A program made the position numbers and the translations under genes. From Zygnema cylindricum (Eukaryota; Streptophyta; Zygnematophyceae; Zygnematales; Zygnemataceae): 57,338 nucleotides of DNA. The notes under the pieces are model-generated. The model ran no database searches. It was not told the origin of the DNA and worked only from the letters and a program-made list of their open reading frames with translations. This document shows, piece by piece, positions 26,026 to 57,338 of the stretch (the first letter of the stretch is position 1; every line of letters begins with the position of its first letter). The stretch spans positions 1-57,338 of the forward strand of contig JBBHKE010002419.1 in assembly GCA_037447655.1 (NCBI GenBank), read 5' to 3'.

Positions 26026-27336
26026 TGTTGTCCCTAGCCTATTTCAGCAATGGATTGCTCACGGAAAACACCCACTGACTACCCCAAGACAGCTATGTTT
26101 CAGACAACACATGTTACTCCACAATAAACATAATCACCTTAAAATGCACCATTATACATTATATACTAGAAAATATGACCTTCAAAAATTATAGCCAGAT
26201 CCACAAAGAAATCCAAAAGATATGAGCTCCAGAGTTTCCCAAAAACAACTGACTGCTTATCAAACTAACCAGGTAAACTTATCATAGAATTCTACAGAGA
26301 TAACAGAATGTCATGAAACAACACACACATATAGTGTCTAGATAATAAACTATCTTCACAAAGTTTCATGCAAAAGAATCTATGAGAGTAATCACACCAT
26401 CAGGTCAAAGTTTCAAAAAAATAGTCACCATTACTTTGATAAATTTAAATCTGACACTAAAAATTACTAAGTCCTACAAGTTTATCCTCACAAAGCTATC
26501 TAGTGAGCCCTACACTAATAAAATAATTACACCTGTATTTGAGTACTATACTCGTGTACTCGAATACAGACAATTTACGTCTACGGTACCTGAACTGTAC
26601 CAAAGGTACGTCAAAACCATAATTATGACTTATATCTAATTTCACTATTGTAACACTAAAAATTAATTCACTACATACAAATTAAAGTTGTTTCAGATAT
26701 TTTCAAATAGGAGCTGTACATAAATTGTGTCATTTGCTTAGTCTGCAATTGAAAAATCCGTCCAAATGATTATAAGCGTCCGTACAAGTCAACTAAGAAT
26801 TTGCGGATCGCCGTTAGATGTAAAGTAAATTTTCGCTGTGGACGACACGCGTCCAAATCATTATCCTAATGTGGGCCCATTTCGAATAGCGTCCGTACAA
26901 GTCAACTAAGAATTTGCGGATCGCCGTTAGATGTAAAGTAAATTTTCGCTGTGGACGACACGCGTCCAAATCATTATCCTAATGTGGGCCCATTTCGAAT
27001 CGCGTCTGTTGACGCAATTTGTATCAGCCACCTAATCTTTGTCCCGTACAGAACCATTCCCAGATAGCCGTCGTGTATCTCATTTGTTAGATCATCCACA
27101 TTTGTCCGTCCATTATGTGACGCGTGTTATTGTTCACCATTTATAATTCTGGAGTACCTGCGTATAATGAAGTGATGACGCGTGTCCGACCAAGGTACTC
27201 TACACTCATCTGTACTGAGGAAACCGTCGCACTAATTAAAATAGGTATTACACAAACTTATACAAAAAATATTCTAAGGCCTAAAAGCTCCCCTCACAGC
27301 CTCATCCACTGAGGACTAAAGTTTTCAAACTCAACA
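26026..27336 (-). mobile_element. 5' LTR of B3 (family B), enlarged by a tandem duplication
   Basis: Plus-strand limits are TGTTGTCCCTAGCC and AAACTCAACA. On the minus strand it begins TGTTGAGTTTGAAAAC and ends GGGACAACA, like the solo LTR at 3376-4501. It is 1311 bp, of which 113 bp is a perfect tandem duplication (26775-27000). The right flank is family-A LTR sequence from 27337. Confidence 0.8.
26775..27000. repeat. Perfect 113-bp tandem duplication in a B LTR
   Basis: The unit begins AGCGTCCGTACAAGTC at 26775 and again at 26888. The two copies look identical over 113 bp, although the surrounding LTR is old. The unit includes GTGGACGACACGCGTCC. A recent slippage or a collapsed or expanded assembly would both explain it. 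Confidence 0.9.
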
Positions 27337-37935: not shown

Positions 37936-38422
37936 TGTTGGTCTACAACCACAGTTGCAGGTGGAAGATCACCAGTGGTAGGAGATGTAGACATAGTCTT
38001 CAGCAAAAGCTACCAAAAATCTTATCAAACAGCCAACTTTGATATAACAGAGAAATCACTTGAGGTGTTCAAATAACACAAAGATCCACACTAATACAGT
38101 ATCACATACAGTCTGTCAAATCCCAAAATTGCAACCTAATTGAATCATTAAACCATAAGATGTAACACTTGGAAGTTTCCCAAAAACTGTCCCTTGGAGA
38201 GTTAGATCTCAATACTGGATAGTTACAATTTTGGCTAAGTCCTAACATTATACTCACAGAGAGTATCTACTAAAAACTAACTAATCAGATGTCTACACTT
38301 GGAACAACAGTACTGTACTACTCTACTACAAGGTACCGAATCAGTACGCTATCTGTACTGTGAGTACGTTGTTAGATTTCCTAGAAATCCGGGATTCGGC
38401 ATGTCCCACACTTGGGAAAATT

Positions 38423-38493
38423 GAGCCGGCCAGGGTTCGAACCTGGGACCTTTCACTTCAGCTGCGAACGCACTACCACTGTGCCACCAGCTC
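38423..38493 (-). tRNA. tRNA-like gene in the TRIM 3' LTR
   Basis: 71 nt that fold as a full cloverleaf. The 7-bp acceptor stem is GAGCTGG with CCGGCTC (one T-G pair) and the 4-bp D stem GCAC/GTGC with loop AGTGGTA. The 5-bp anticodon stem closes on loop AGCTGAA, and a 5-bp T stem CCAGG/CCTGG closes on TTCGAAC. A-box TGGCACAGTGG (complement of 38476-38486) and B-box GGTTCGAACCC (complement of 38433-38443) fit the Pol III consensus. TTTT follows two bases after the acceptor (38417-38420). The formal anticodon is CTG (Gln), but position 33 is G instead of the universal U, so decoding is doubtful. It is more likely a Pol III promoter or structural RNA than a working tRNA. Confidence 0.8.
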
Positions 38494-38598
38494 GATGTTG
38501 AGACTGGCGGGTCCGTACCCATTTATTACGGGCGGCTCGAGTATGGATATTTCCATATTCTACCCCGTATTGGACCGGCTTCACGTGCCAATCCAACA

Positions 38599-38608
38599 CC
38601 CCCCCCTC
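38599..38608 (-). other. TRIM polypurine tract
   Basis: On the minus strand GAGGGGGGGG directly abuts the 3' LTR start TGTTGG. It is the expected plus-strand DNA priming site. Confidence 0.75.
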
Positions 38609-38641
38609 ACGGGAAAGCCGGTCAAACCATCCGCAATCCCG

Positions 38642-38656
38642 CTGGCTCCGATACCA
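38642..38656 (-). other. TRIM primer-binding site (3' end of initiator tRNA-Met)
   Basis: TGGTATCGGAGCCAG begins immediately after the 5' LTR. It matches the complement of the 3' end of plant initiator tRNA-Met (TGGTATCAGAGCCAG, from memory) at 14 of 15 positions. This is conventional CCA-end priming, unlike the internal sites of every copia element in the window. Confidence 0.82.
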
Positions 38657-38709
38657 TGTTAGATTTCCTAGAAATCCGGGATTCGGCATGTCCCACACTT
38701 GGGAAAATT

Positions 38710-38780
38710 GAGCCGGCCAGGGCTCGAACCTGGGACCTTTCACTTCAGCTGCAAACGCACTACACCTGTGCCACCAGCTC
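38710..38780 (-). tRNA. tRNA-like gene in the TRIM 5' LTR
   Basis: Second copy, same 71-nt layout. The four differences from the other LTR are in the D loop (two adjacent bases, which weaken the A-box), in the anticodon stem (C-G becomes T-G) and in the T loop (TTCGAGC, compatible with the B-box). The cloverleaf is retained. TTTT follows at 38704-38707 on the minus strand. Confidence 0.75.
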
Positions 38781-39446
38781 GATGTTGAGACTGGCGGGTC
38801 CGTACCCATTTATTACGGGCGGCTCGAGTATGGATATTTCCATATTCTACCCCGTATTGGACCGGCTTCACGTGCCAATCCAACATACGTCCAAACCCTA
38901 TTTGACTACTAGACAAAAATATACTTAGTGGAACACTAGATTCTAATCCGCTAAGCAAAAACTACTTTGTTTCACATATGCAAATAGATTCCTGTACAGT
39001 AGTGCTCAAGGTGCTTAGTCAGCAATGGATCCTAGTGTCCAGCTGACTGTTGATCAAATGCTCCAAGTCACCTGAGGTCGTACAAAGTGATGAGTCATTT
39101 TGTGGTCCCCAAGAATCTCGTCCGTTCACTCGATTCACATCTACGGTCGTCGTTGAAAATTGTACCACTATTCTTGCGGACAGTCGGTTGAGTCTCCATC
39201 CGTCCGATTCTTCAACAGTATTCGTTCGATGTGTGACGCGTGGTAAAGTGTGTCGGCGCCTTTCCGTAAAACCAGTATGATGTTCATTTTCTGACGCGTG
39301 TCCCTGCAACAGTACAATACACTTAGAAGTACTAGTGCTACTGTAACACTAAATGTGGTAAGTATTACATCTTATCGAGACCAAAAATATTCTAAGTACT
39401 TGGTCTCTCCTCACAGCTATGTTTACTAAGTATTAAGATTTTCTTA

Positions 39447-39541
39447 CTCCCCTAAATCCTTAGACTCACTTACTCACTCAACCCAACAGACTCTCAGCAA
39501 TACTTCAACTTAGGAGCTGGAAGAGCTTTAGTCAGCATATT
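39447..39541 (-). pseudogene. pol: Family-B RNase H C-terminal fragment and polypurine tract
   Basis: Minus-strand M-L-T-K-A-L-P-A-P-K-L-K-Y-C and a stop, compared with M-L-T-K-A-L-L-A-P-K-L-N-Y-C in B1. It is followed by E-S-V-G-L and the purine tract next to the LTR. Only the last 30 or so codons survive; the A4 LTR cuts off the rest. Confidence 0.72.
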
Positions 39542-40565
39542 TGTTGAAATTAATAGATTTCTAGAGTATTTTCTAGGTTTAAAATGTAAGTATAAAAGAA
39601 AAAGAAAAAAGACTTACAGCCTGCCTACACCTCCTCTGTCTAGCCCCCATACTTGTTGTAGTCACCGTAAGATAGAGAGAGTGGTTGATCCATGGCTGCC
39701 TTAGTTCAACAGGCAGATATTTTTAAGGCTACTAAAAGTATACCTGACAAACCCGGGATTTGATCCAAGTATCTGCGGTTCGTCAAGCTGGCCGATAGTG
39801 GTCATGTTTATCCTACTAGACTAGGACCAATGCTAAATGCTATAGTATGTGATAGATATATATATATTTAGGAAGGAGCAAATCCATTTAACTAAAACTG
39901 TGTACGGCGTACATGGATACAGTTTTATGAATGTACGAATACAAAACGGATACCACGCATTTTGTTTCGACAACGAAACAAATATCGCGCAAGTATTTAT
40001 TACGGCCAAGATTGCGTCTCGCTGCAAATCCAATGGCGCACATCATCCGCGAAATCCCGGAGTAGTCACTTTGGCGTTTAGTGACGTGGCATGACCTGGA
40101 GCCACGTGGAGAGATGACATTCGGTCATAGGAATTCCGAGGAATGTACGGACGAGTGAAAAAGAGACACGCGTCCGCTTAATAGTCCTGTCGTACATAGG
40201 CCGTACAAAAGGTACACCGGCAGTAGTACTTTTTGGTACGGTACAGTAATCTGATTGGTCCGTACTTCAGTAGATAGAAATTATTAGAGGGAATCAGGAC
40301 TTAGAAAATTTTGGTAGGCAGTCACCTCTCCCTTTGAGAGTTTGTACAAATTGACATTTTTACAGCCTCATAACTTGTCGCTTGGTTGGGCGTTTTCAGA
40401 GATTCTTTTTCCTACTCACTCAAAGGAGTCCAGGCTGCATAGGGGTGCATTCAGATTGTCAGCTTGATTGCCTGGCCAGCAGTGGCTGTGGGATAAAGTG
40501 GGCTAGTTATCAACTATCTAGAGGCTTCCTGTATTCTGTAGTCCAATGGAGGACACAGAATTGCA
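39542..40565 (+). mobile_element. 5' LTR of A4 (family A)
   Basis: Begins TGTTGAAATTAATAG and ends CACAGAATTGCA before the primer site. It contains GACGTGGCATG and GCCACGTGG G-box-like sites near 40083-40105 and a conserved AATCAGGACTTAGAAA segment near 40288. A promoter hairpin lies near 40320. The ATG at 40546 starts gag. Its last 350 bp are nearly repeated at 43388-43741. Confidence 0.8.
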
Positions 40566-41680
40566 CGTTTTGGGCCCACCCTTTGGAGTGCCCATTTTCA
40601 ATGGATCTGGGTTCATCTATTGGGAAGCCATGATGATGGGAGGTTTGTGTGAAAAACGATACCCCACGTCAGTGCACAAGTGAAACGTCCACCTTCGGGA
40701 ACTCCGCCAGGATTTGGAGTAGTAAGGTTTTTTGCAGCAGCGACTGCTTCCGCGGAGGAGGCACATGATGGGGACTGCATTGTGTCCGAAAAGGGGAAAG
40801 GGAAGGAGACACCCCTCACCCCTATTGCCATGGCACCAAGAGCGGCAGCCGTGAAGACAGTGGAGAGCGATGTTCAAATGTGGGAAGAGATAAACATGGC
40901 TACCAAGAACTTCATTCTAAGGCATCTCACCCAAGCCTAGGCCACCTCTCACTTTAATATTTACAAGGCCGAGGAGTTGTGGGAAAGTTTGGTGGAGATC
41001 TAGAGAGCTGGTACCATTCAGGAGCTCCAAATGGCTGAGCAAAAGCTAGTGAGTTACACGTACAAAGGAGGAAAGATGTTAGATTATTGCAATGATCTTT
41101 CTTGTTTGTATATCGAGATGGAAAGTGCTGTTTGGACAGGCACAATGAAAATGAAAGTAAACACTCTCATCATGAAGTTACCAGAGGAGTATGAGAACTT
41201 AGTGTACCGAGTACAAGAAATGACTGATAGTTCATGGAAGTGGAATACAGTAGTCAGGGTGATACTTGTGCAGGAAAATACCATAGAGATCAAGGGAGGT
41301 GGAAAGAGCATTCAAGCTCTAGCCGCCGGAGGGGATAGGTGGAGACCGCAACTGAAAAAACCATACAAAGGAGAAAGAGTCCAACCTGGAGGACCGAGGC
41401 CCCCAAAGGGCCTATGTAATTTTTGCAAAAAGCGAAGGCACTTTATTGCGGATTGTGCCAAGCTGGCGGAGCTGAGGCTTAAAGAGAACCAAGGAGGTGG
41501 TTCCTCTAAAGGGAAGAAAAAGGCACTTTTGGTCACAAAGGTGACAAGAGACACCGAGGACGAGTCCTCTGATGAGGATGGGGAGCTTCTTCTTCACGAG
41601 AGTATGGAGGAGAAGGAGATCCCTCGAAGACAAAAGTGTGCCGTTAGAGCGATTCGGGAAGCTCCACAAGAACGATAGAT
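40546..41680 (+). pseudogene. gag: A4 gag, disrupted
   Basis: M-E-D-T-E-L-H, then V-L-G-P-P across the LTR end and primer site (40566-40580), then V-P-I-F-N-G-S-G-F-I-Y-W. A stop at 40681 ends the first part; the same protein resumes in another frame at 40680-40940 and, after stops near 40940 and 41000, at 41031-41678. That last open frame holds the capsid part (T-L-I-M-K-L-P-E-E-Y, E-N-T-I-E-I) and an intact CCHC knuckle (C-N-F-C-K-K-R-R-H-F-I-A-D-C, 41415-41456). An acidic linker and R-R-Q-K-C-A follow. The stop at 41677 falls just before the protease motif, where sister elements read through. Confidence 0.8.
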
Positions 41681-43387
41681 CAACGACTTAGGTGCATCCA
41701 TGCATATGTGTCGTGACAAAGCCCTCTTCACTAAGGTAAGGAAAATCCCTACTGTAGAAATAGAGTATGGGGATGGGAGAGTTGTTATAACAGATCTAGT
41801 GGGATCAGTTGACCTGAAAGTTTTAGTGGGGGGTAAGACTTCTATTCTCACTTTCTCAGATGTACTTTATATTCCTCAGCTGAGTAAAAATCTTGTTTCT
41901 ACATCTGTGTTAGATGACAAATAGTTTGATACTTTCACTAGAACGGGAGTTTTTACAGCCAAGTATGGGGATGAAGTTTACTTCACTACAGATAAGGGTA
42001 GCTAAGGAATGTTTAGGCTTAACTTGAGTAATGAAAAGAAGAATGCTTACCATGTTCGTGTCCCAAAATTGATGATTTGGCATAAGCGGTTGGGGCATGT
42101 GCATTTTGATAGGTTGAGGGAGATGAAGAAGCTGGGTGTGGTAGAAGGCATTCAGTTCAGTGATGATGAAATGGTGGATGATTGTAGCGGTTGTGCCCAA
42201 GGAAAAACTCACAGACTTCCTTTTCCTAAAGCCGCCACATATAGGGGTGAAAAAGTACTAGATTTGATCCACACAGATATCTTGGGACAAGCAAGGGTAC
42301 CCTCATTTGGAGGGAAAAGATATATGTTGACAATCACTGATGATTCGTCTAGATACTCTTGAGTTTATTTTCTAAAAACAAAGTCAGAAACACCAACTTA
42401 CTTCAAACAATACAAAGCCTAGAGTGAGAAGTTGCATGGAACCCCCATTAAGAGAATAAGGAGTGATAATGGGGGAGAGTATACCAATTTGAGGAATACT
42501 TAAGAGATGAGGGAGTTCAACACCAGAAAAGTGTACCCCATAATCCGGAACAAAATGGTGTAGCAGAAAGGCTAAACCGAACACTAGGAGATAGTGTATG
42601 CAGTATGTTGGCTTAGAAGAAAATAGGAAAGAGATTTTGGGCAGAAGCCATGAACTGTGCTAATTACATTAAAAATAGAGTCCTCACATCAGCAGTCAAA
42701 GGTATGACACCTTATGAGAGATGGGTTGGAAGAAAACCAGATATCTCTCACCTTAAAGTTTTTGGTAGTCAAGTTTACAGTCTAGATACGGATAAGAAAA
42801 ATTGGAAACTTGATGCTAAAGGAAAACCTGGATATTTTGCGGGATATGATGAGGATGTTAAGGGATATAGAGTTTATGACTTAGCAAAGCAAGATATTAT
42901 TCTGGTAAAACACCTAGTTGTCATGGATGAAGGAAAGTCAATTGACCCCTTTAAATATACTAAAAGGATAAGAATCAGGTTTAAGTCTGAGAGTGAGGAG
43001 AACTCTGTTTTTCCCGAAAAGGACATAAGTGATACCGTGGTTGCAGATTCAGGGGAGATCGAAGATACAGGAGAGCTACCAAATACCCCACATATTCCCA
43101 TGGATTTCGAGGAGACACTAAGGAGGAACCCAAGACTTCCCTATATTCCAGCTTCTGAATTTGAAGCGGGGAGAAGGAGCAGTAAAAGGCTACAAGAGAA
43201 ACAAGCAGCTCATAAGGTAACTAAGCTATCACATCCTGATGAGCCTTAGTCATACTTGGAGGCAGTGAACAGTCCAGAAAGGACATATGGATCAGGGCCA
43301 TAAATGATGAAATGGCTTCCATCATGGAAGCAAATACCTGGTAACTAGCGGATTGCCCTTCAGACATAAAACCTATTGGGTGTAAAT
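41681..43387 (+). pseudogene. pol: A4 pol: protease, integrase, hinge, start of RT
   Basis: Protease motif I-N-D-L-G-A-S-M-H-M-C (Ser to Leu) near 41685; G-D-G-R-V-V and D-V-L-Y-I-P-Q-L-S-K-N. Stops at 41923 and 42003. The pre-integrase box W-H-K-R-L-G-H-V-H-F-D is at about 42078 and S-G-C-A-Q-G-K at about 42186. The integrase core has H-T-D, R-S-D-N-G-G-E and N-G-V-A-E-R-L-N-R with stops at 42361 and 42421. The integrase end and hinge are open at 42650-43249 (199 codons). RT begins near 43300 and is cut at about 43387 by LTR sequence; the active site is missing. Confidence 0.8.
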
Positions 43388-43741
43388 CGTATCGGCAGTA
43401 GTACTTTTTGGTACGGTACAGTAATCTGATTGGTCCGTACTTCAGTAGATATAAGTTATTAGAGGATATTAGGACTTAGAAAATTTTGGTAGGCAGTCAC
43501 CTCTCCCTTTGAGAGTTTGTACAAATTGGCATTTTTACCGCCTCATAACTTATGGGCTGGTTGGCCGTTTTCAGTGATTCTTTTTGCTACGGACTCACGG
43601 GAGTCCACGCTGCACAGGGGTGCAGTCAAATTGTCTGTGTGAATTTTTGGGCAGCAGTGGATGTGGGTTAAAGTGGGCTAGTTAAACAACTATCTTGAGG
43701 CTTCCTGTATTTTGTAGTCCAATGGAGGACACAGAATTGCA
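43388..43741 (+). mobile_element. 5'-truncated family-A LTR between A4 and A5
   Basis: Near copy of 40210-40565 of the A4 LTR, starting ATCGGCAGTAGTAC and ending ACAGAATTGCA. It includes the promoter hairpin and terminal ATG. It is joined on the left to A4 RT and on the right to A5 protease sequence, without primer site or gag. Both junctions look like deletion breakpoints. Confidence 0.78.
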
Positions 43742-44900
43742 GGAAAGATATCTATAGTGTTATTCTCTAATGTGTTGTTTATTCAAGAGTTCAACAATCT
43801 CAACGTTTTTGTTAGATGATAAGGGTTTCGAGACTAGCATTAGGAAGGGAACCTTTACGGCTATCTTTGAGAAAGAAGTGTATTTCACTGCTAAAAAAGA
43901 TAGCCCAAGGATGTTTAGGCTGATTATAAGCAATGAAAAGAAGAAACTTTACTATGTTGTTGTTCATGATATTATATTGTGGCATAAGAGGCTGGGACAT
44001 GTGCATTTAAATAGGTTAAAATAAATGAAAAAGATGAGAGTAGTGGAAGGAATTCAGTTTGAAAAAAATGACCATTGAATGACTGTACAGGTTGTGCTCA
44101 AGGTAACGCACATTGGTTACCGTTCCCAAAAGAAGCCACTTATAAAGGAGAAAAAATGTTAGACTTGGTACACAGTGATATTTGGGGACGGGCCAAAGTG
44201 CCCTCACCCGGTGGTAAGAAGTTTATGATGACAATCATTGACGATTTGTCTCAGTACTCAAGATTGCATTTTTTGAAAAATAAGTCAGAGGCCCCACAGG
44301 TTTTTAAAGAATATAAAGCATGGAGTGAGACTCCATCAAACCTCTATTTAGAGAGTAAGGAGTGATAATAGAGGAAAGTATGAGGATTTTTTGAGAGAAG
44401 ATGCTGTGCAACACCAAAATACAGTTCTTGGAAATACAGAGCAGAATAATGTAGCCGAGAGGTTAACTAGAACACTAAGTGATAATGCCAAGAGTATTTT
44501 TTCAAATAAGAAGATAAAAAAGAGATTTTGGGCCAAAGTAATAAAATGTGCTAATTATCTCAAGAATATAGTTCTTACTTCAGCAGTAAAAGGCCAAACA
44601 CCTTATGAGAGATGGACAGGCCGAAAACCAGATGTTTCACACTTAACAGTTTTTGGTGAAGTGTTCAGTCTAGACAGAGATCGGTCAAATTGGAAGTTAG
44701 ATCCAAAAGGGAAGCAAGGATATGTGTTAGGATATAATGAAGTTGTAAAAGGAGATAGAGTCTATTATTTGAAGAGAGAAGAAATAATCTCAGTGAAGCA
44801 TCTAGTGGTCATGGATGAAGGGAAATCTATAGTTCTCTTTAAGTATAGAAAAACTGTCAAAATCATATTTGAGTCAGAAAATTGAAATGACTTTGAGCTT
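43742..44900 (+). pseudogene. pol: A5 pol: protease end and integrase
   Basis: Starts in the C-terminal protease region (L-D-D-K-G-F-E-T-S-I-R, 43812 on). W-H-K-R-L-G-H-V-H-L-N is at about 43980, and T-G-C-A-Q-G-N (44084 on) keeps the finger Cys residues. The integrase core has H-S-D-I-W-G-R, R-S-D-N-R (44350) and N-V-A-E-R-L-T-R (44450). The frame shifts near 44070 and 44345. The integrase C-terminus G-K-Q-G-Y-V-L-G-Y-N is intact to 44885. gag and the catalytic protease motif are deleted. Confidence 0.78.
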
Positions 44901-46695
44901 CCTAACTCTAGGTTTTTGAGAAAATTATGATTCTTAGAGGTATAGATCAGATCAAAGAGGACTCAGCCTTGGAACCCCTAGAAACAACTCCAACCGAAGC
45001 GGAAGACGAGGTGGAAATAGACCCGGAATCGAGGGATGGGGGAGAAGTCAAAATAGTTCGGAGGAATCCACGAGAGCCATCTATTCCGGCAGCAAAGTTT
45101 GAGGGAGGAAGAAAAAGCAGCAAAAGAATACAAAAGAGAAAAGTTATCAACAAGGAAACCAAACTATCTCACCTCGATGAACCTCAAACTTATAAAGAGG
45201 CATGAACTGTCCAGAAAAGAACCGGTGGAAGACAACCATTAATGAGGAGATGACTTTTATAGCGGCCTATACGTGGGAATTGGTGGATTGTCCTCTTGAC
45301 AAAAAGCCAATCGGGTGTAAGTGGGTGTTTAAATTGGAACTCAACCCGGATAACACCATTAAGCGCTACAAGGCTCGGTTAGTGGCGAAAGGATTTACCC
45401 TGGAGGAATTGCCTACGAGAAAACTTTTGACCTTGTCGTCAAGTTTCCCTCCGTTCGGATACTTCTCAGTATGGCGGAAGCAAAAAACATGGAAGTACAT
45501 CAGAGGGACATCAAAACGGCCTTCCTACATGGAGAGTTGGAAAAGGATATCTTTCTATGACATTCTGAAAGATTTGTGGAGCAATGGGATGAGAGCAAGG
45601 TATGCTGATTGATCAAATCTTTGTATGGGTTGAAACAAGCGCTCGGCAATAGAATAAAAAACTCGATGAGTTTTTTACGAGTTTAGGATATATTGGGATA
45701 AACTCAGATCACTTAATTTATTTGTTTAAAGATGAGGAATGAATTATTTTTATTGCAATTTATGTTGGTGATTTGCTAGTTTTAAGTAGATCTATGGATA
45801 AAATAAATAAGTTGATAAATGATCTAAAAGGAAGATTTGAGATGAATGATATGGGGGAAGCAAGGCATATTTTGGGAATTCATGTAGAGAGAGACAAAGA
45901 TAGAAAGATAATAAGATTAACTCAGAAAGAGGCCATTGGAAACATGTTAGAATGATCCCAAATAGACAAGGCTAATAGTTGTACCACTCCTATGGAACTA
46001 AAGAAGGGAAGTGAGGGGAATGTAGAAGAGTGGGTTATAATCTTGGATGATGAGTTAGGCCCTGAAGAGAATAAATTTATGCAAACAATTTGTCATAGAC
46101 AAATAGTGGGCAACCTAATATATTTTATAAGTTTTACCCGACCGGACATATATGCAACTGTAGGAGTACTAAGTAGGAGTCTTAATGCTTCAACTAAGAA
46201 GGATTAGGAGGCAGCTAAGAGGGTCTTTATATATCTCATAGGGACTAGAGATCTATGGTTTTATTTGGGTGGGAAAAATACTGACATCACCACTTGGAGT
46301 GATGCCAGCTATGGCGATGCTCCTATGAGGAGATGCACATCTCGATATGTATTGTATGTTGGTGATGGAGCTTGCTGTTGGAGTAGCAAGCAACAAAAGG
46401 TCATTGCTCACTCCACCATGGAGGCTCAGTACATGGCCTCTTGCTCTACTGTAAAAGAATTAATGTGGGTCAAGTCCTTGCTTAGTGAACTTGGTCATCT
46501 TAAGAGTGGTGTCCCCAAAGTGTTTTGTAATAATCAGGCAGCCATAACACCATTTTAAAGCAAAAGATAGGGACATTAGACTTACCTTCGTTGGGGAAAA
46601 GGTTAAAGACATAATAATAAGTTTAGAATATAGACCTGATAGTGAAATGGTTACAGATATGATGACCAAACTTGGGGTCGAATTGAAAAGTGACT
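44901..46695 (+). pseudogene. pol: A5 pol: hinge, RT and RNase H
   Basis: Acidic hinge with S-S-K-R-I-Q-K (45117 on). RT motifs are G-C-K-W-V-F-K-L-E-L-N-P, R-Y-K-A-R-L-V-A-K-G-F (45361 on), then shifted, with Y-G-L-K-Q-A near 45624 and Y-V-G-D at 45761-45772 where Y-V-D-D is expected. L-G-I-H-V-E-R-D follows. RNase H: W-S-D-A-S-Y-G (about 46294), S-T-M-E-A-Q-Y (Glu to Gln at the last position) and F-C-N-N-Q-A-A (catalytic Asp to Asn). A small deletion removes N-P-K-H near 46553. Several stops (45954, 46207) are present. A purine tract AGAAAATAAGAGGAG precedes the LTR. Confidence 0.8.
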
Positions 46696-46710
46696 AGAAA
46701 ATAAGAGGAG

Positions 46711-47580
46711 TGTATAAATTAAAGAATTTTTTGGTATTTTCTAGGTTTAAACTTGTAAAAGATAAAATGCACAAAAGAAGCAAAAGTAGTTTGCCTCTAA
46801 CTCCTCTCTTCTACTCCCACATTTGTCGCTGTCATTGAAAGTTGGAGATGGAGCTAGAGCCATGGCTGCCTATGCTATCTAGAGGAAAAGAGGCAGTAGT
46901 TTGGTAGGGTTACTAAAAAGGAACTTGACGGACCTAAGATTTGATCTTGGTACCGGCCGTCCGTCAAAGTTCTCGGTAGCCGGTAGCTTTATTCTATTAG
47001 TCTAGGACCAGTGCTAAATGCTACAAGATTTGACAAATATATAAAAGTTAACACTTAGACTAATTCATTTAACAGAATGTTAAAACAAATATACAGTTTG
47101 TATTGTACCGGTTACGGAATATTTTGAAACGAATATCGCGCATTTGTTTCAAATGTGAAACAAAGACCGCGCATTTATTTATGACGCCTAAGATTGAAAA
47201 CCGGTTGAAATTGGACGGTAGAGGTAAGCGTCGAGATCGCGAAATGCCCGCTTAGGCGGTTAATGGTCGAAAACACATCAGATGCCAAGTGGCAAGATAC
47301 CACTGGATGGCGACATCTCCGAAGAATATGAAAACAAATCCGAATGTGACACATGTCCACAAAATGGCCATGACGTTCAATTGTCGTACAGAAAATACAG
47401 TGGCACCTGTACCTTTATCTACGACACAGAATTGCAATTGGTGTCGTACGTTAATAGATAAAGTTTTAGAGAGAGATAGGACTTAGAAAAATTCAGTAGG
47501 TAGCCGCCTCTCTCCGAGAGAGCTTCTCTACAAAATGTCATATTGATCCACCATAACTTACTGCTCATGGAAGCAAATTC
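46711..47580 (+). mobile_element. Family-A LTR shared by A5 (3') and A6 (5')
   Basis: Starts TGTATAAATTAAAG after the A5 polypurine tract and runs through the promoter hairpin (near 47507) to AGCAAATTC. There it is replaced by a truncated TRIM LTR. The missing LTR end, primer site and gag start of A6 were lost together. Confidence 0.78.
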
Positions 47581-47792
47581 TGTTGATTTCCAAGAAATCC
47601 AGGATTCGGCATGTCCCACACTTAGGAAAATTGAGCCGGCGAGGGTTCGAATGTGGGACCTTTCACTTCAGCTGCGAACCCACTACCACTGTGCCACCAG
47701 CTCGATGTAGAGACTGGCGGGTCTGTACCCTTTTCTTACCGGCGGCTCGAGTATGGATATTCCATATTCTACCCCGTATTGAACCGGCTTCA
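47581..47792 (-). mobile_element. Truncated solo TRIM LTR (third copy)
   Basis: 212 bp matching the TRIM LTR from TGTTGATTTCC to GAACCGGCTTCA. The last 17 bases of the LTR are missing. It is more diverged (roughly 90% identical by eye) and has no target duplication (left AATTC, right AACTT). It joins a family-A LTR to family-A gag, so its insertion was accompanied or followed by a deletion of several hundred bases. Confidence 0.85.
47633..47703 (-). pseudogene. Decayed tRNA-like copy in the third TRIM LTR
   Basis: Same 71-nt position as in 38423-38493. The acceptor stem is retained, but the D stem has one mismatch (GCAC with GTGG) and the T stem is disrupted. The B-box core TTCGAACCC is still present but preceded by CA. 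It is likely inactive. Confidence 0.75.
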
Positions 47793-48600
47793 AACTTGGG
47801 ACTTCAACAATATGGCGGCAAAGCACTTCATCCTACGCCATCTCACTCAAGGACTTGCATGTCCTCATTTGCAGGTAGAAAGGGCATCCGATCTTTGGAT
47901 GGCTCTCATAGAGATGTACCGAAGTGGTACGATTCATCAACAACAGTTGGCTGATCAGAAAGTTAAGGAGTATGTATACAAATGGGGGAAGATGTTGGAT
48001 TTTTGCAATGAGCTTGCTACACTCTTCATGGAGCTAGAGAGTGCGGGAAAAGATTTTAGTGAAAAAGAAAAGGTTAACTGTTTACTGATGAAGTTACCTG
48101 ATGAGTTCGAGAACATAGTCAACCGTGTGCAGGACTTGCCGGACTCAAGGTGGATATGGAACTCAGTGGTAGGGATGATTCCCGTTCGGGAGAATACGAT
48201 TGAGATCCGAAGGGGAGGAAAGAGTGGCCAAGCCTTGGCAACTGCGACTGATTGGAGGAACAAGGATTCCCGGAAACCGGTCGAAAACTATAGGGGGAGG
48301 GAGCAGAAAAATTAGACCAACGAGTTTAGACCAAGGGCTCCCAAAGATTTATGTCATTTTTGTAAGAAACATAGGCACTATATGGCAGAGTGCACTAAGC
48401 TAACCGAGCTTCAGTTAAAAGAGGGGCAGACCGGTGGTACCCCGAGAGGAAAAAAAAAGGCCCTTGTGACACAGGTACATGAGGCCGAATCCGAGGACGA
48501 GGACGATGAGCTCCTTTTAGATAAGGAGTTGGAGGCGAAAAACGAGGTCGAAATACCACGAAGGCAGAAATGTGCTTACTATGGATTGAAAGGTGAAGCA
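47793..48600 (+). pseudogene. gag: A6 gag, 5'-truncated but nearly open
   Basis: One frame runs from about 47653, inside the TRIM LTR, to a TAG at 48313, then stays in register to the zinc knuckle and protease. Gag residues begin at T-W-D-F-N-N-M-A-A-K-H-F. Capsid signatures are L-W-M-A-L-I-E-M-Y, M-L-D-F-C-N-E-L, L-L-M-K-L-P-D-E-F and R-E-N-T-I-E-I. The CCHC knuckle C-H-F-C-K-K-H-R-H-Y-M-A-E-C at 48352-48393 is intact. The first 80 or so residues of normal gag are lost. A Lys-rich linker and acidic segment lead into protease. Confidence 0.82.
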
Positions 48601-49960
48601 CGCTGGATTGTAGATTCAGGTGCCTTCATGCACATGTGTAACGATAGGCACCTATTCACTAAGATAAGAAATATTCCCACCGTAGAGATAGAGTACGGGG
48701 ATGGGAGGATAGTCACCACTACTCTTGTAGGATCGGTAGATTTGAAAGTGTTAGTAGAAGAAAAGACATCCATAGTAACATTCTCCGATGTATTGTTTAT
48801 TCCGGAGCTGAACAAAAACCTCATCTCTACATCCGTATTAGATGATAAGGGTTTTTTTACTAGCACTAGGGAAGGAGTCTTTACTGCTAGTTTTGAGGAG
48901 GATGTCTATTTCATTGTTGAGAAAGGTAGCCATGGGATGTTCAGGCTCGTTTTAAGTAATGAAAAGAATAAACTTTATTATGCTGGTGTTCATGATATTA
49001 TGATGTGGCATAAGAGGCTTGGGCATGTGAATCTAGACAAGTTAAGAGAGATGAAAAAGATGGGAGTGGTGGAAGGGATTAAGTTTAGTGAGAATGATAA
49101 TATAAGTGATTGTAGTGGATGTGCTCAAGGTAAAACACACAGATTACCCTTTCCTAGAACAGCCACCTATAAGGGAGAAAAAATTCTAGATCTAGTACAC
49201 ACAGATATTTGGGGACCGGCTAAAGTGCCCTCACCGGGGGGAAGAGATTTATGATGACTATCACTGATGATTGGTCTTGGTATTCCCGAGTGTATTTTTT
49301 AAAAAACAAGTCCGAAGCTCAAGATTGTTTTAGACAATATAAAGCATGGAGCGAAAAACTTCATGAAACTCCAATCAAGAGAATAAGGAGTGACAATGGT
49401 AGAGAGTATACTTCTAACCAGTTTGAGGATTTTCTGAGGGAAGATGGGGTCCAACACCAAAAGACAGTTCCAAAAAACTCGAAATAGAATGGGGTAGCTG
49501 AACGATTAAATAGGACACTTAGTGATAGTGCTAGAAGTATGTTGTCGGATAAGAAGATAAGAAAAAGGTTTTTGGCAGAAGCAATGAATTATGCTAATTA
49601 CGTCAAAAATATAGTTCTTACCTCAGCTATAAAAGATCAAACACCTTATGAGAGATGGATCGGCCGAAAACCAAACATATCTCACTTAAAGGTTTTTGGC
49701 AGTCAAGTATTCAATCTAGATACAGATTGGTCTAATTCGAAGCTAGACCCTAAAGGAAAACCGGGATACTTATTAGGATATGATTAAGATGTTAAAGGAT
49801 ATAGAGTTTATGATCTAAAAAGGGAAGATATAATCTTAGTAAAGCATCTAGTAGTTATGGATGAAAGAAAGTCTGTGGATCCTTTCAAGTATACAAAGTC
49901 AATAAAAATCAGATTTGAGTCAAAAATTTCAATGACTTTGAGCTTCCTTACTATCCAGGT
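48595..49960 (+). pseudogene. pol: A6 pol: protease and integrase, best-preserved copy
   Basis: The protease active site D-S-G-A is intact at 48613-48624 within an open frame from 48382 to 49254. That frame also includes W-H-K-R-L-G-H-V-N-L-D (about 49006), S-G-C-A-Q-G-K and H-T-D-I-W-G-P. A one-base length change in a G run near 49236-49242 shifts the frame. The next frame (49251-49487) has R-S-D-N-G-R-E, and after a TAG comes N-G-V-A-E-R-L-N-R (49490 on), so the D,D,E residues all survive. One stop at 49785 interrupts G-K-P-G-Y-L-L-G-Y-D. Only about four lesions separate this from an open reading frame. Confidence 0.84.
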
Positions 49961-51815
49961 TTTAGAGAAGATGACATTCTTGTAGGTACGAATCAGACCG
50001 AAAAGGACTCGGCTGCAGAAACTCCAGTGACAACTCTACCTGAAGCGGAAGACGTGGTGGAAATTGATTTGGAATCAACGGATAGGGGAGAAGCCGAGAT
50101 TCTTCGAAAGAGCCCACGAGAACCATCTATTCCGGCCATAGATTTTGAGGGGGGAAGGAGAAGTAGCACAAGATTGCAAGAAAAACAGGTTAATAACAAG
50201 GTAACAAAACTATCTCATCAAAATGAACCTCAAACTTATGGAGAGGCCATGACTTGTCCAGAAAAAGAACCAGTGGAAGACAGCCATCAATGAGGAGATG
50301 GCCTCAATTATAGCAGCCGATACCTACGAGCTAGTGGACTATCCACCAAACCAAAAAAACCAATCGGTTGTAAGTGGGTTTTCAAATTAAAACTGAACCC
50401 AGATAACACCATTGAGCGTTACAAAGCCCGGTAAGTGGCATAAGGATTTGCACAGGAAGAATGAATCAACTACGAAGAAACCTTTGCCCCGGTCGTCAAA
50501 TTTCCCTCTGTCCGCATACTTCTCATTTTGGCAGCAGCGGAAGACATGGAGTTGCACCAGATGGACATCAAGAGAGCCTTTTTGCATGGATAATTGGAAA
50601 AGGAGATCTTCATGCGATAACCCGAAGGATTTGTGGAGGATGGAGAGGAGAGTAAGGTATGTCGGTTGATTAAATCTCTTTATGGTTTGAAACAGGCCCC
50701 TCGAGAGTGGAATAAGAAGCTTGATGAGTTTCTTATAGGTGTGGGATATATCCGGATCAGCTCAGATCACTCAATCTATTTTTTTGAAGATGAGAAAGGT
50801 GTTATATTTATTGCAATTTATGTTGATGATTTGCTTGTTTTAAGTAAATCAATGGAAAAAATTAATAAACAGAAAACTCATCTTAAGGTGAGATTTGAAA
50901 TGAATGATATGGGGGAAGCAAAATATATATTTGGGAGTTTAAGTAGAAAGAGACCGAGAAAGAAAGATTATAAGATTGACTCAAAAGGAAGCAATAGGGA
51001 ACATGTTGGAAATATTTCAGATGGATAAAGCTAATGGTTGTACAACTCCAATGGAGTTAGAGAAGGGAAATGAGGGGAGTGAGGAAGAAGGAGTCATAGT
51101 CTTAGATGAGGAATTATCTCCTGAAGAACAGAAGTTCATGCAGACTATTCCTTACAGGCAAGTAGTGGGAAGTCTAATCTATTTTATGAATTGTACCCGG
51201 CCGGATTTAGCTGCAGCTGTAGGAGTGCTGAGTAGAAGTTTAAATGCTCCCACTAAGAAAGATTGGGAGGCAGCTATGAGAGTCCTTGGATATTTGATAG
51301 GAATTAGGGATCTATGGTTGCATTTGGGTGGGGAGAATACTCACATCACTACTTGGAGTGATGCCAGTTATGGTGATGCTCCGATGAGGAGATGTACTTC
51401 TGGATATGTATTATATGTGGGTGATGGGGCTTAATGTTGGAGTAGCAAACAGCAAAAGGTTATTGCACAGTCCACCATGGAGGCTGAGTATATGGCCTCT
51501 TGCTCTGCTGTAAAAGAAGTGATGTGGGTCAAGTCTATGCTTGGTGAGCTGGGTCACCATAAGAGTGGTGTGCAATTTTTTTTTTGTGATAATCAGGCAG
51601 CGATCGTTATTTTTGCCAATCCTAAACATCATTTTAAAGTCAAACACATGGACATTAGACTCAACTTTGTTAGAGAGAAAGTAGAAAACAAAATATTCAT
51701 TTTAGAGTACCGACCAGATAGCGAGATGGTAGCAGATATGATGACCAAACCTGTGCCTTCCCCTAAGCTAATTTTGTGGAAGGAGAAGTGTGGTCTGAAA
51801 TTTAACAGTGACTAG
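49961..51815 (+). pseudogene. pol: A6 pol: hinge, RT and RNase H
   Basis: Hinge with R-S-S-T-R-L-Q-E (50160 on). RT: G-C-K-W-V-F-K-L-K-L-N-P, E-R-Y-K-A-R with stops near 50430-50465, E-L-H-Q-M-D-I-K, Y-G-L-K-Q-A-P-R-E-W and an intact Y-V-D-D at 50819-50830. A frame change near 50930-50980 precedes R-Q-V-V-G-S-L-I-Y-F-M-N. RNase H keeps W-S-D-A-S-Y-G, S-T-M-E-A-E-Y and F-C-D-N-Q-A-A; one stop (51433) interrupts G-D-G-A. The protein ends at 51812-51814, followed by the purine tract AGAAAATAAAGGGAG and the LTR. Confidence 0.85.
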
Positions 51816-51828
51816 AAAATAAAGGGAG

Positions 51829-52868
51829 TGTAGAAATTGATGGTTGTTTTAGTATTTTCTAGGTGTAAAATAAAGTGCAGAAAAAGAAGCAAATGCAGAC
51901 TGTCTCTAACTTCTCTCTCCAACTCTCACACTTGTTGTAGTCACTGAGAAGTTGGAGAGGAAGTTAGTGTCATAGCTGCCTATGCTATCCAGAGATTTAC
52001 GTGGTAGTAAAGTAGTATATTTACTAAAATAAAAGTTTTCGCCTAGAGGATTTGATCCTAATACCTACGGTTAGGTAATGCCGCACGTAGTTGGTAGCCT
52101 CATTCATTTAGTCCAAGATTAGTGGTAAATGACATATACTGTAATAAATATATAAACGTTAACATATAGACTAATTCATTTAACGTCAATTATATACGAA
52201 AAACATAGAGTCAGTTATGAAAAGTACAGATTACGAGTACGAAGAATAAATAAGTACTGCGCGTTTGTTTCGATGGCGAAACAAATACATCGTAACTATT
52301 TATGACGGCTATGATTGAAATCGGCATTCAATCGGATGGCCGGAAAGCATGTCGAGATCGCGGAAGAAGATTTCGGCGGTTTATGGTCACCACCACATCA
52401 GATAACACGTGGCACCACGACATTGGATTTCGACATCTCCAAGGATTACGAAAACGAATCCAGAAAAGACACGTGTCGACATTTTGTTCATGTCGTACAT
52501 AAAGTACACCGGCAGCTGTACCTTTCTGTACGGTACATTAATATCATTGGCGTCGTACGTCAGTAGATAGAGTTTTAGAGAGAGATAAGACTTAGAAAAA
52601 ACTGGTAGATAGGACCTTATCTCCCAAAGAGCTTATGTACAAAAGTTCAACTTTGACCCTCCATAACTTACTGCTCAGAGGAGCAAATTCAGAGATTCTT
52701 TTTGCTATCGACTCAAGGGAGTCTTGCCTCCACAAGAGTGAAGGTGGTCAGAGTTTTTGTTTTCCAAGATGGCACTTATTGGTGCTGAAAGACAAAGGGG
52801 TCAGGGTTATCTTTGAGGCTTCGTGTGAGCTGCCTACTCTGAGGTCTTATGGAGGTCTCACAGTTCCA
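51829..52868 (+). mobile_element. 3' LTR of A6 (family A)
   Basis: Starts TGTAGAAATTGATGG after the polypurine tract and ends with ATGGAGGTCTCACAGTTCCA. It contains a G-box near 52408 (CACGTGGCACC), the palindrome-like region near 52470, a promoter region near 52615 and the terminal ATG. It is followed immediately by part of another LTR. Confidence 0.8.
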
Positions 52869-53085
52869 CTTTGGTCAGCCATAACTTAATGCTCAAAGGA
52901 GCGATTTCAGTGATTTTTTTGTTGCGTACTCAGGGAAGTCCAAGCTACACAAGGGTGTAGTCAGTCAGAGTTTTTGCATCCCAAAGTGGGACTTATTCTA
53001 CGCCAAAGTCAAAAGTGCAAATACTATCATAGAGGCTTCACATAATCTGGACATTTTGTCTACCAATGGAGGTCACATAATTATA
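52869..53085 (+). mobile_element. 5'-truncated family-A LTR preceding A7
   Basis: Matches the last 220 bp of family-A LTRs (CAGCCATAACTTAATGCTC, the GTGATTTTTTTGTTGCG box, CACAAGGGTGTAGTC) and ends ATAATTATA. The ATG leader reads M-E-V-T then a stop. This LTR lacks a promoter, so A7 has no complete 5' LTR. Confidence 0.72.
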
Positions 53086-54220
53086 AGCTTTGGGCCCACC
53101 CCCTAGGGTGCCCATTTTTAATGGAATAGGTTTCATTTATTGGGAAACCATGATGAGGGGTGCATTGTTTGAAAAACGGCTATAGGGCATTGTGAGTGGT
53201 CATGTGCGTCGGCCATCTGCAAATTTGGGAGTTCCACCAAGGTTTGGAGGATCTCGGTTTACAAGAGGATCTCCGGAGGCAGAGGAGGTAGAGGATGTTG
53301 GAGAAAGGATCGTGTTGGACACAAGGAAGGAGAAGGGGAAGGAAAAACTCACACCATGGCTACTAGATCGGCTCTAGTAGCAAATATTTAGAAAAGTGAG
53401 GCGAATGATACTCAAATTTGGGATTTCAACAATACTGTCGCGACTCATTTTATTCCCGGGCATCTCACTCAAAGAGTGGCTACACCTCATCTTCATGTAG
53501 ATAGGGCAGATGAGTTCTGGGAAGCTCTTGTCAACATTTACAAGAGTGGTACGATTTAGCAGCAGAAGCTGGCGGATCAGAAGTTACAAGCATATATGTA
53601 TGAAAGGGGAAAGATGTTAGATTTTTGTAATGACTTCGCTGGGTTATTCATGGAGTTGGATAGTGCAAGGAAAAGCAAGACCGAAAAAGACAAGGTGAAT
53701 ACTTTGTTAATGAAACTCCCAGATGATTATCAGAACATTATTAACAGTGTTTAGGATTTGTCTGATCATCTCTCGATCTGGAACTCCGTTGTGGGGATGA
53801 TTTTGGTTCAGGAAAACACAATTGAGATTCGTAGGGGAGGAAAGAGTGTTCAAGCATTGCCTGATAGAACTAACTGGGGGGATAAGGATTCTAAGAAACC
53901 TTATGGGAACTTTGGTGGAAGAGGAAGAGGGAATCATGATGGATCTGGACGAAGGGCTCTGAATGGGCTTTGCCATTTTTGTAAGAAGTCGGGACACTAC
54001 ATGGCGGAGTTCATTAAGTTAACGGAGTTGAGATTGAAGGAGGAGCCGATTAGAAAATCGGCCGCAAGGAAAAAGAAGGCATTTGTTGCGACACAAGTCA
54101 TGGGAGAGGACTCTGATGATGACGATAGAGAACTCCTTAACGAGGAGTTGGAGGTGAAAGGTGAGCCAAAGATTCCAATGAGGCAAAAGTGTGCTTACAG
54201 TGGAGTGAAAGAAGCTCCTG
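53086..54220 (+). pseudogene. gag: A7 gag with primer site, disrupted
   Basis: Primer site AGCTTTGGGCCCACC (two changes, 53086-53100), then V-P-I-F-N-G-I-G-F-I-Y-W-E and R-R-P-S-A-N-L-G-V-P-P-R. Stops follow near 53184 and 53376. Capsid remnants (about 53420-53750) show L-L-M-K-L-P-D-D-Y and a TAG at 53752. An open frame (53758-54312) carries E-N-T-I-E-I-R-R-G-G and a zinc knuckle C-H-F-C-K-K-S-G-H-Y-M-A-E-F, whose last Cys is Phe. It continues into the protease. Confidence 0.8.
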
Positions 54221-55520
54221 AAGAAAGATGGATCATTGATTCATGTGCCTCTATGCATATGTGTAGAGAGAAACCATTGTTTACCGAAATGAGAAAGATC
54301 CTTACTATATAGATAGAGTATCGCGATAGGAGAATAGTGACCACTAATTTGGTGGGATAAGTAGATCTAAGAATCGTAGTTGATGGTAAGACAACTTTAG
54401 TCACTTTCTCATATGTACTTTTTATCCCACAGTTGTACAAGAATCTTATCTCTACGTCGGTCTTAGATGATAAGGGTTTTGAGACTAGTACTAAGAATGG
54501 AGTCTTTGTTGCTAGTTATGAGAATGAAGTGTATTTCATAGCTTAAAATGGTAGCCACGGAATGTTTACGTTGAATTTGAGTAATGTAAAGACGGAAATT
54601 TATTATGCTGGTGAAAGAGATTTGATGATTTGGCATAAAAGATTGGGACATGTGCATCTAGATAGATTGAAGGAAATGAAATTAATGGGTGTAGTTGAGG
54701 GAATACATTTTGGAGATAATGAGACTTTGGATAATTCTAGTGGGTGTGCTCAAGGAAAAGCCCACAAATTGCCTTTTCCAAAAGCCGCAACATATAAGGG
54801 TGAAAAGGTTTTAGACTTGGTTCAAACAGACATATGGGGACAGGCCAAAGTGCCATGAGTTCGAGGGAAAATATTTATGCTTACTATTCTGATGATTGGT
54901 CTAGATACTGTAGAGTTTATTTCTTCAAAAAAAAATCTGAGGCTTCAGCTTATTTAAAAAAGTACAAAACATTGAGTGAAAGGCTTCATGAGACACCCAT
55001 AAAAAGAGTGAGGAGTGATAATAGGGGAAATTCACTTCTAATGAGTTTGAGGATTACTTGAAAGAGGAAAGGTTTCAACACCAAAAGACTGTCCCAAAGA
55101 ACCCAAAACAAAACAGTGTTGCCGAGAGACTAAATTGAACATTCAGTGATAGTGCCCGTAGTATGTAGACAGATAAAAAGATAAGAAAATGTTTTTGGGC
55201 AGAAGTTATAAATTGTGCTTACTATCTCAAAAATAGAGTCCTTTCCTCGACGGTAAAGGGACAAACACTTTATGAAAGATGGACCGGGAGAAAACCTAAT
55301 ATTTCACACTTAAAGGTGTTTGGAAGTCAAGTATTTAGTCTAAACACAGAAAAATCTGATTAGTTTTTAGATGCAAGAGGAAAGCCAGGATACTTCTTTC
55401 GGTATGATAAAAATAATAATGGGTATAGAGTTTATGATCTTGGAAGAAAAAACAAAATTCTAGTAAAACACTTGGTAGTTATGGATGAAGGAAAGTCCAT
55501 AGATCCCTTTAATTAAACTA
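54221..55520 (+). pseudogene. pol: A7 pol: protease and integrase
   Basis: The protease motif reads W-I-I-D-S-C-A-S-M-H-M-C, with Gly of D-S-G replaced by Cys. Stops occur at 54310, 54358 and 54543. W-H-K-R-L-G-H-V-H-L-D is at about 54631 and S-G-C-A-Q-G-K-A at about 54739. The integrase core has Q-T-D-I-W-G-Q, then a frame change near 54850, R-S-D-N-R-G (55012) and V-A-E-R-L-N (55120). The region ends in G-K-P-G-Y-F (55381) with stops at 55360 and 55515. Confidence 0.8.
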
Positions 55521-57338
55521 CACCGGTCAGAATTAAAATTGAATCCGAAAATGAGTTAGATTCAGATTCTTCTAACCAAACTTCGGTTCAGCCTGACCTT
55601 GCAGAGGAAGAGAAAAAACTGACCGAGAGTGACCGTGTCTAGGAGTCACAACTTCCGGTTCAAACCGGGGAAGAAAACGAGGAAAGACCGGAAATGGATG
55701 ATGAACGTCTGGAGATGGACTCCACGGATAGTGAGAAAGTTGAAGTTGTTCGGAGAACCCGAGATTACCCTCCATCCTAGCATCAGAATTTGAAGAAGGA
55801 AGGAGAAGCAGCAACAGACTTCAAGAGAGACAAGTTTACAACAAGGTAACTAAGCTGTCACATTTAAGCGAACCCCAGACTTACTTGGAAGCAGTTAATA
55901 GTCTGAAACATAGTAGATCAGTGATAGTTATTAATGATGAGATGGCTTCCATTATGGAAGCAAACACATTGGAGTTGGTGAATTTTCCCTCTAGATAGAA
56001 AGCCAATAGGATGCAAGTGGGTATTTAAGTTGAAGCTCAATCCAGATAATACTATTGAGCGTTACAAAGCCAGATTGGTGGCAAATGGGTTTACACAAAA
56101 AGAGGGAATCGATTATGAGGAGACCTTCGCTCCGGTTGTTAGATTTCCCTCCGTCCAGATTCTACTTAGTCTAACAGTAGCGGAAGTCATAGAATTGCAT
56201 CAGATGGACATCAAAACCGCTTTCTTACACGGAGAATTAGAAGAAGATAACTTCATGCGACAACTAAAAGGATTTGTGGAGAAAGGAGAAGAAAGTAAGG
56301 TGTGCAAATTGATAAAGTCCCTTTATGGACTAAAGTAAGCTCCACAACAATGGAACAAGAAGCTCGACAAGTTTTTAACGAGTTTGGGATATATCTGAAT
56401 TAGTTCGGATCATTCCATCTACTTATTTAAGGATGAGGAAGGTCTAATTTTCATTGCTATATATGTTGATGATTTGCTTCTTTTGAGTAAATCAATGGAG
56501 AAAATGAATTGATAGAAAAAGGATCTAAAGAACAATTTGAAATGAAAGATTTGGGGGAGGCAAAGTATATTTTGGAAATTCACATGGAGAGGGATAGAGA
56601 AAACAAACCAATTAGACTAACTCAAAAAAAAGCAATTGGAAATATGCTAGAAAAAATTCAAATGGATAAAGCAAATAGTTGTATGACTCTAATGGACTTA
56701 AAGAAAACAAATGAGGGGAGCTCAGAAGAGGGAATCTTGATCTTGGTTAATGAGTTAGGACCAGAGGAAAGTAAGTTCATGCAAACTATTACGTACAGAC
56801 AGGTTGTCGGTAGTTTGATCTATTTTATGAACTGTACTCGTCTTGATATAGCACCATTTGTGGGAGTGCTAAGTAGGAGTCTGAATTATCCTAGCAAGAA
56901 AGATTGGGAAGCGGCCAAAAGGGTCATGGGGTACTTGATAGGAACAAAAGATCTATGGTTGCATTTAGGAGGGGATAATACTGACATCACCACTTGGAGT
57001 GATGCCAGTTATGGGGATGCTCCAATGAGGAGGTGTACTTCTGGGTATGTGTTATATGTTGGGAATGGAGCTTGTTGTTGAAGCAGCAAGCAACCAAATG
57101 TGATTGCTCAGACCACTATGGAGGTTGAGTATATGGCCTCTTGTTCGGCTGTGAAAGAATTAATGTGGGTGAAATCTTTGCTTCAAGAATTGGGATATAT
57201 AAAGAATAGAGTGCAAAAGATATTTTGTGACAATCAAACAGCGATTGCAAATGCAGCAAATCCTAAGCATCACTTTAAAGCAAAGCATATAGATATTCGT
57301 TTGTGATTTGTTAGACAAAAGGTTGAGGATAAACTAAT
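55521..57338 (+). pseudogene. pol: A7 pol: hinge, RT and RNase H, running off the window
   Basis: Hinge with R-R-S-S-N-R-L-Q-E (55801 on). RT: G-C-K-W-V-F-K, R-Y-K-A-R-L-V-A-N-G-F-T-Q (56059 on), E-E-T-F-A-P-V-V-R-F-P, E-L-H-Q-M-D-I-K-T-A-F-L-H-G, Y-G-L-K and a TAA (56336). The active site Y-V-D-D at 56462-56473 is intact. After a TGA near 56510 a 190-codon frame gives R-Q-V-V-G-S-L-I-Y-F-M-N and W-S-D-A-S-Y-G. TGA at 57079, then S-T-x-E-V-E-Y (A to V) and F-C-D-N-Q-T-A. The gene ends beyond 57338; the final part near 57300 has another stop. Confidence 0.83.

Follow-up and report, generated by a model that had tools for sequence, protein, structure and literature searches.

Helenus elements are TRIMs whose LTRs contain tRNA-derived sequence, and they have been reported from fungi, animals and one plant (Kojima, 2024; PMC10886601). 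They measure 311-1263 bp, contain a PBS and a polypurine tract (PPT), and are flanked by a 5-bp TSD in fungi and plants; their boxes are given as TRGCY and YGG for the A box and GGTTC for the B box (PMC10886601). Solo LTRs and tandem arrays, the latter for one Helenus, are reported as well, and fungal Helenus have a PBS in common with an autonomous Copia partner (PMC10886601). The only plant member named in the available parts of this defining paper is Helenus-1_SMo from Selaginella moellendorffii, with an LTR of 120 bp and an interior of 85 bp, and the same parts contain no experimental test of Pol III transcription (PMC10886601). In a literature search covering titles and the beginnings of abstracts, with subscription journals and preprints outside its scope, this was the only paper found on tRNA-derived LTR sequence in TRIMs. 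A text search of the literature with the letters of the PBS described below gave no match.

The element that we compared with these systems lies in a window of 57,338 nt (the whole stretch of Zygnema cylindricum DNA that was analysed). It is a complete TRIM of 516 bp in minus-strand sense, composed of two 229-bp LTRs and a 58-bp interior (Table 1). In element sense, the LTRs start with TGTTGG and finish with CTAACA; a PBS follows the 5′ LTR and a PPT precedes the 3′ LTR. The total length is below 1000 bp and there is no protein coding: a stop-to-stop frame of 167 aa, which spans most of the element, is counted as chance because it lies on the opposite strand. The PBS, TGGTATCGGAGCCAGC, can pair with the 3′ end of the plant initiator-Met tRNA except at one or two positions. 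The LTR and interior lengths, PBS, PPT and perfect TACGT duplication had all been proposed in an initial annotation and were confirmed in the sequence. No second match to the interior was found within the 57,338-nt window, nor was an autonomous partner.

Table 1. Features of the element and of an older LTR copy, in window coordinates
Feature	Position	Strand	Evidence or remark
Complete TRIM	38370..38885	-	Direct repeats and TSD; full-length copies elsewhere in the genome
5′ LTR	38657..38885	-	98.25% identity to the 3′ LTR
3′ LTR	38370..38598	-	Full-length match at 100% identity with LTRs from several further copies in the genome
Interior, 58 nt	38599..38656	-	Between the LTRs; length 57 nt in 45/52 interiors
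PBS TGGTATCGGAGCCAGC	38641..38656	-	Start of interior; same start in 34/52 interiors
Polypurine tract GAGGGGGGGG	38599..38608	-	End of interior, before the 3′ LTR
TSD TACGT, first copy	38365..38369	.	Directly abuts the element
TSD TACGT, second copy	38886..38890	.	Directly abuts the element
tRNA-like unit, 5′ LTR	38709..38780	-	21/21 standard pairs; Rfam tRNA 42.3 bits (E 5.1e-8, 241-base search); ARAGORN
tRNA-like unit, 3′ LTR	38422..38493	-	21/21 standard pairs; Rfam tRNA 53.6 bits (E 8.9e-9); ARAGORN
A box TGGCACAGTGG, 3′ LTR	38476..38486	-	Loose motif
A box counterpart TGGCACAGGTG, 5′ LTR	38763-38773	-	Loose motif
B box GTTCGAACC, 3′ LTR	38434..38442	-	Loose motif
B box counterpart GTTCGAGCC, 5′ LTR	38721-38729	-	Loose motif
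TTTT, candidate Pol III terminator, 3′ LTR	38417..38420	-	Just after the tRNA-like unit
TTTT counterpart, 5′ LTR	38704-38707	-	Just after the tRNA-like unit
Older LTR copy, with roughly 15 nt missing at the LTR start	47581-47792	-	93% over 214 aligned columns

In both LTRs, the tRNA-like unit begins at LTR position 106 and has the same sense as the element. ARAGORN called a tRNA on the minus strand in each window LTR, and both units match the Rfam tRNA model (Table 1), the one in the 5′ LTR being unlisted in both Rfam scans of the whole window. As stated in the initial annotation, a full cloverleaf with stems of 7, 4, 5 and 5 bp, A and B boxes and a subsequent TTTT are present in both LTRs in the orientation of the element. 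For the 3′ LTR unit, the 7/4/5/5 stems correspond to the fold of lowest energy, whereas the 5′ LTR unit prefers a different fold, favoured by 2.3 kcal/mol, with 21/21 cloverleaf pairs still standard. Neither fold is unusually stable compared with shuffled sequences (z -0.66 and -0.42), so that the evidence comes from the match to the tRNA model and not from stability. The A and B box form expected of Helenus is kept in the 3′ LTR (TGGCAC...TGG and GGTTCGA); in the 5′ LTR of the window, the TGG of the A box is lost (CAGGTG). In each of the three copies within the window, the anticodon loop (AGCTGAA) carries G at position 33. Since tRNAs carry U33 in this loop, the unit is unlikely to decode. 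Two more pairs of A and B boxes at tRNA-like spacing were observed on the minus strand at 39765-39823 and 19632-19672; neither matches a tRNA model up to E 1, and they could be chance occurrences or SINE remnants.

Searching the host genome (352.8 Mb in 2689 contigs) with the element gave at least 51 matches (40 of 975 first-look candidates scored), 50 of the 51 with an element coverage of at least 94%. The 50 matches outside the window correspond to 39 places, which were all fetched, and locus counts refer to these 39 plus the window. The fetched loci are the best-scoring copies and are therefore young. An exact 5-bp duplication is present at 29 of the 40 loci and absent from 11; six loci consist of 3 to 5 arrayed LTRs, in some cases partial ones, with interiors in between. 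Six of the 34 two-LTR elements have identical LTR pairs. ARAGORN detected a tRNA in 87 of the 89 full LTRs, 85 of them being labelled Gln-ctg, and the same 89 LTRs contain the loose A box motif in 85 cases, the B box in 87 and TTTT in 86; the two boxes occur together in 83. Interiors measure 57-59 bp in 50 of 52 cases and exactly 57 nt in 45 (window included). They start with TGGTATCGGAGCCAGC in 34 cases, with TGGTATCAGAGCCAGC in eight and with other forms in ten; the TGGTATCAGAGCCAGC form contains the 12-nt PBS quoted for Cassandra in the source consulted. The family is multicopy and recently active. Two outcomes named in the initial annotation as speaking against such a family, namely copies that lack the tRNA part and LTRs that never occur elsewhere with the 58-bp interior, are not what these counts show, and the full-length copies with 5-bp duplications that it called for exist.

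Compared by description, the element resembles Helenus in its tRNA-derived LTR sequence with A and B boxes, its PBS, PPT, 5-bp TSD and arrays, and it shares with the Helenus of fungi and plants an initiator-Met-type PBS together with a 5-bp TSD (PMC10886601). It differs from Helenus-1_SMo in its proportions, with 229 bp for the LTR and 57-58 bp for the interior versus 120 and 85 bp. On these structural features, compared by description, the element appears to match a Helenus-type TRIM. The initial annotation knew of no described family with this make-up, a claim that fails because Helenus had already been described (PMC10886601). It was right to see a TRIM with a tRNA-type LTR unit parallel to Cassandra; the unit matches tRNA models and belongs to a real, recently active family. 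According to the passages available, Cassandra is likewise a TRIM, with a small-RNA Pol III promoter in its LTR, the PBS TGGTATCAGAGC and tandem arrays. Its LTR contains 5S rRNA sequence, however, and not a tRNA-like unit; no 5S match was found in the window with Rfam up to E 1. Ajax also combines a Pol III-type small-RNA sequence in the LTR with a 5-bp TSD, but this sequence is 5S-derived and the elements come from nemerteans (PMC10886601). PbTRIM of the harvester ant is, like the present element, a non-coding TRIM with a PBS and a PPT, but it has a 4-bp TSD and a Leu-tRNA PBS, and a tRNA unit in the LTR is unmentioned in the available passages of its description (PMC3532108).

Selection on the tRNA-like part was assessed in 34 two-LTR elements, the six array loci and all indels being left out. 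LTR differences within an element are post-insertion and expected to be selection-free; variants present in both LTRs are inherited from the transposing copy. Of 96 within-element differences, 40 lie in the 72-nt tRNA part and 56 elsewhere in the LTR, versus one and 11 of the 12 inherited variants, a difference in placement with a Fisher p of 0.028; counting each variant once, the ratios become 34:41 and 1:11 (p=0.023). Because the inherited variants avoid the tRNA part and the within-element differences do not, this part looks constrained in still-transposing lineages and free afterwards, on small numbers. Taken alone, the 12 inherited variants show no significant departure from the placement expected from context (p=0.12).

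We also considered transcription-associated mutagenesis of the tRNA part, a process that has been reported for the flanks of tRNA genes (PMC8113476). Singleton substitutions among the 89 LTRs amount to 32 inside the tRNA part and 36 outside, with 20.9 expected inside from context (p=0.008). After correction for CpG/CHG context, 40 within-element differences were observed against 33.7 expected (p=0.34), or 36 against 33.7 without the window (p=0.75); with each variant counted once, 34 differences compare with an expectation of 25.0 (p=0.15), and leaving out the window gives 31 for the same expectation of 25.0 (p=0.39). None of these four corrected counts is significant, and transcription-associated mutagenesis was therefore dropped. 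A small excess of differences in the tRNA part may nevertheless exist.

We propose, with a probability of roughly 70%, that the element is a Pol III-transcribed TRIM that would use its tRNA-like unit as promoter and R region. Pol III would bind the A and B boxes of the 5′ LTR and start transcription near LTR position 106. It would sometimes pass the first TTTT and stop at the TTTT of the 3′ LTR, producing a read-through RNA of ~364 nt whose two ends share ~77 nt, corresponding to the tRNA-like part; strand transfer would then use these ~77 nt as its R region. Priming would be by initiator-Met tRNA at the PBS and, for the second strand, by the purine tract; the copy would be inserted by an integrase that generates 5-bp duplications. 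Since TTTT also follows the 5′ LTR unit, a full-length Pol III RNA needs read-through. Four T may be a leaky Pol III terminator, and most initiations may stop at the first TTTT to give a short tRNA-like RNA. The anatomy of LTRs, PBS, PPT and TSD, the tRNA model matches in both LTRs and the multicopy family are consistent with this model, as is the length of the element, which agrees with the Pol III limit put forward for such TRIMs (PMC10886601). That the tRNA-like part acts as a Pol III promoter is plausible, with modest support from the placement of the inherited variants; box conservation among young copies says little in this respect.

The same LTRs contain CACGTG near their start and AATAAA at LTR position 72 (in 88 and 87 of the 89 LTRs, respectively), which leaves room for a Pol II start. 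The element could then be an ordinary TRIM whose transcription by Pol II would start in U3, with the tRNA-like part as a functionless passenger derived from a SINE or tRNA insertion. This explanation, which we consider rather unlikely, would agree with the lack of U33 and with the post-insertion changes in the tRNA part, which show no significant departure from the context prediction in any of the four counts (p 0.15 to 0.75). It is at odds with the placement of the inherited variants (1/12 in the tRNA part versus 40/96 for within-element differences, p=0.028), with a unit that lies in element sense with both boxes and TTTT, and with the conservation around the boxes across Helenus families (Kojima, 2024; PMC10886601).

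With 21/21 standard stem pairs in both window LTRs and an ARAGORN call of Gln(ctg) in 85/89 LTRs, the tRNA-like unit could be taken for a genuine tRNA gene that travels with the element and supplies the host with additional functional tRNA-Gln(CTG) genes. The presence of G33 in every window copy makes this very improbable, and Helenus units have been judged unlikely to encode functional tRNA (Kojima, 2024; PMC10886601). That ARAGORN labels 85 of the 89 LTRs examined as tRNA-Gln(CTG) genes calls for caution in tRNA annotation. A SINE or tandem repeat merely resembling an LTR element is contradicted by the anatomy, namely by paired LTRs with PBS, PPT and an external 5-bp TSD and by a tRNA-like part that starts 105 nt inside the LTR; we hold this to be almost certainly wrong, in spite of a unit similar to SINE heads and of tandem arrays at 6/40 loci.

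We tentatively suggest, at somewhat less than even odds, that the family may represent a second, independently arisen plant lineage of Helenus, recently active and with many copies. Its complete, non-decoding tRNA unit would be kept by selection as Pol III promoter and terminal R region, and would release an abundant short tRNA-like RNA from each LTR in addition to the read-through genomic RNA. With identical-LTR copies and a complete cloverleaf, the family would be a good test bed for the Pol III transcription of Helenus.

Searches of other collections revealed no relatives of the element. The complete element had no match among plasmids. The 72-nt unit gave nine weak matches there (best E 0.1) and, with E values up to 10, matched 156 records of phages; the best E among those listed is 4e-3, and many of the listed phage matches are annotated as tRNA genes. 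Such matches are expected for any tRNA-like sequence. A 22-mer of the LTR had no match in genome_contigs, nor had a 25-mer of the tRNA part in viral_contigs. Two other LTR words each occurred in one viral contig. Apart from pieces of at most 17 nt, the LTR match is confined to the 20 searched bases in the first contig, which is a phage by reading of its ORFs, and to 24 nt (96%) in the second; ARAGORN found no tRNA in either, and both matches were taken as chance.

The two LTRs of the window differ at four sites, all located in the tRNA-like part (probability under random placement 0.009). This pattern does not extend to the family: across the remaining 33 two-LTR elements, the proportion of differences in the tRNA part is not significantly different from the context prediction, and the pattern of the window remains a mild oddity. 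At the differing sites, the older LTR copy (Table 1) agrees with the 3′ LTR, indicating that the 5′ LTR is the changed one. The tRNA-like part of this older copy is decayed, with 4/21 pairs broken and the B box lost, and has no Rfam match up to E 1. Its left flank matches 52087-52690 and its right flank matches 53415 onward, which places it at a junction at which a related copia is longer by about 0.7 kb.

Decayed copia pieces are abundant in the window, with copia-type Pfam domains matched by 8 of the 10 scanned ORFs. Protein searches with copia pieces from the window yielded distant hits or no hit, pointing to no particular taxon. Several related decayed copia coding units, 60-80% alike and in one orientation, occupy 41000-57338; those near 44.4, 49.4 and 55.0 kb follow one another at intervals of 5.0 and 5.6 kb, which resembles a tandem arrangement. 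CpG in the window is at 0.66 of expectation, and the most depleted trinucleotide is CAG/CTG (0.74). The latter depletion is uneven: of nine stretches, six have values of 0.62 to 0.77 and the other three 0.89, 0.90 and 0.99, the value of 0.99 being that of the stretch 38000-41000 around the element. CG and CHG methylation is a land-plant habit. The combined CpG and CAG/CTG depletion, read from the window alone, points to both and would suggest a land-plant host, with which the initiator-Met-type PBS agrees. At positions 1-6000, CpG is over-represented (1.35 of expectation versus 0.49-0.75 in the rest of the window), so that this end may lack methylation or have a different origin. A long GA/CT-rich inverted repeat at 4543-4649, with weak sub-threshold matches to several microRNA families, is probably a simple-sequence hairpin. 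A 113-bp unit is present in two near-identical tandem copies at 26775-27006. Elsewhere in the genome, a TRIM copy 99% identical to that of the window (L004:1501-2015), in which both LTRs have the sequence of the window 3′ LTR, adjoins copia sequence and lies within a frame that continues into a copia integrase region.
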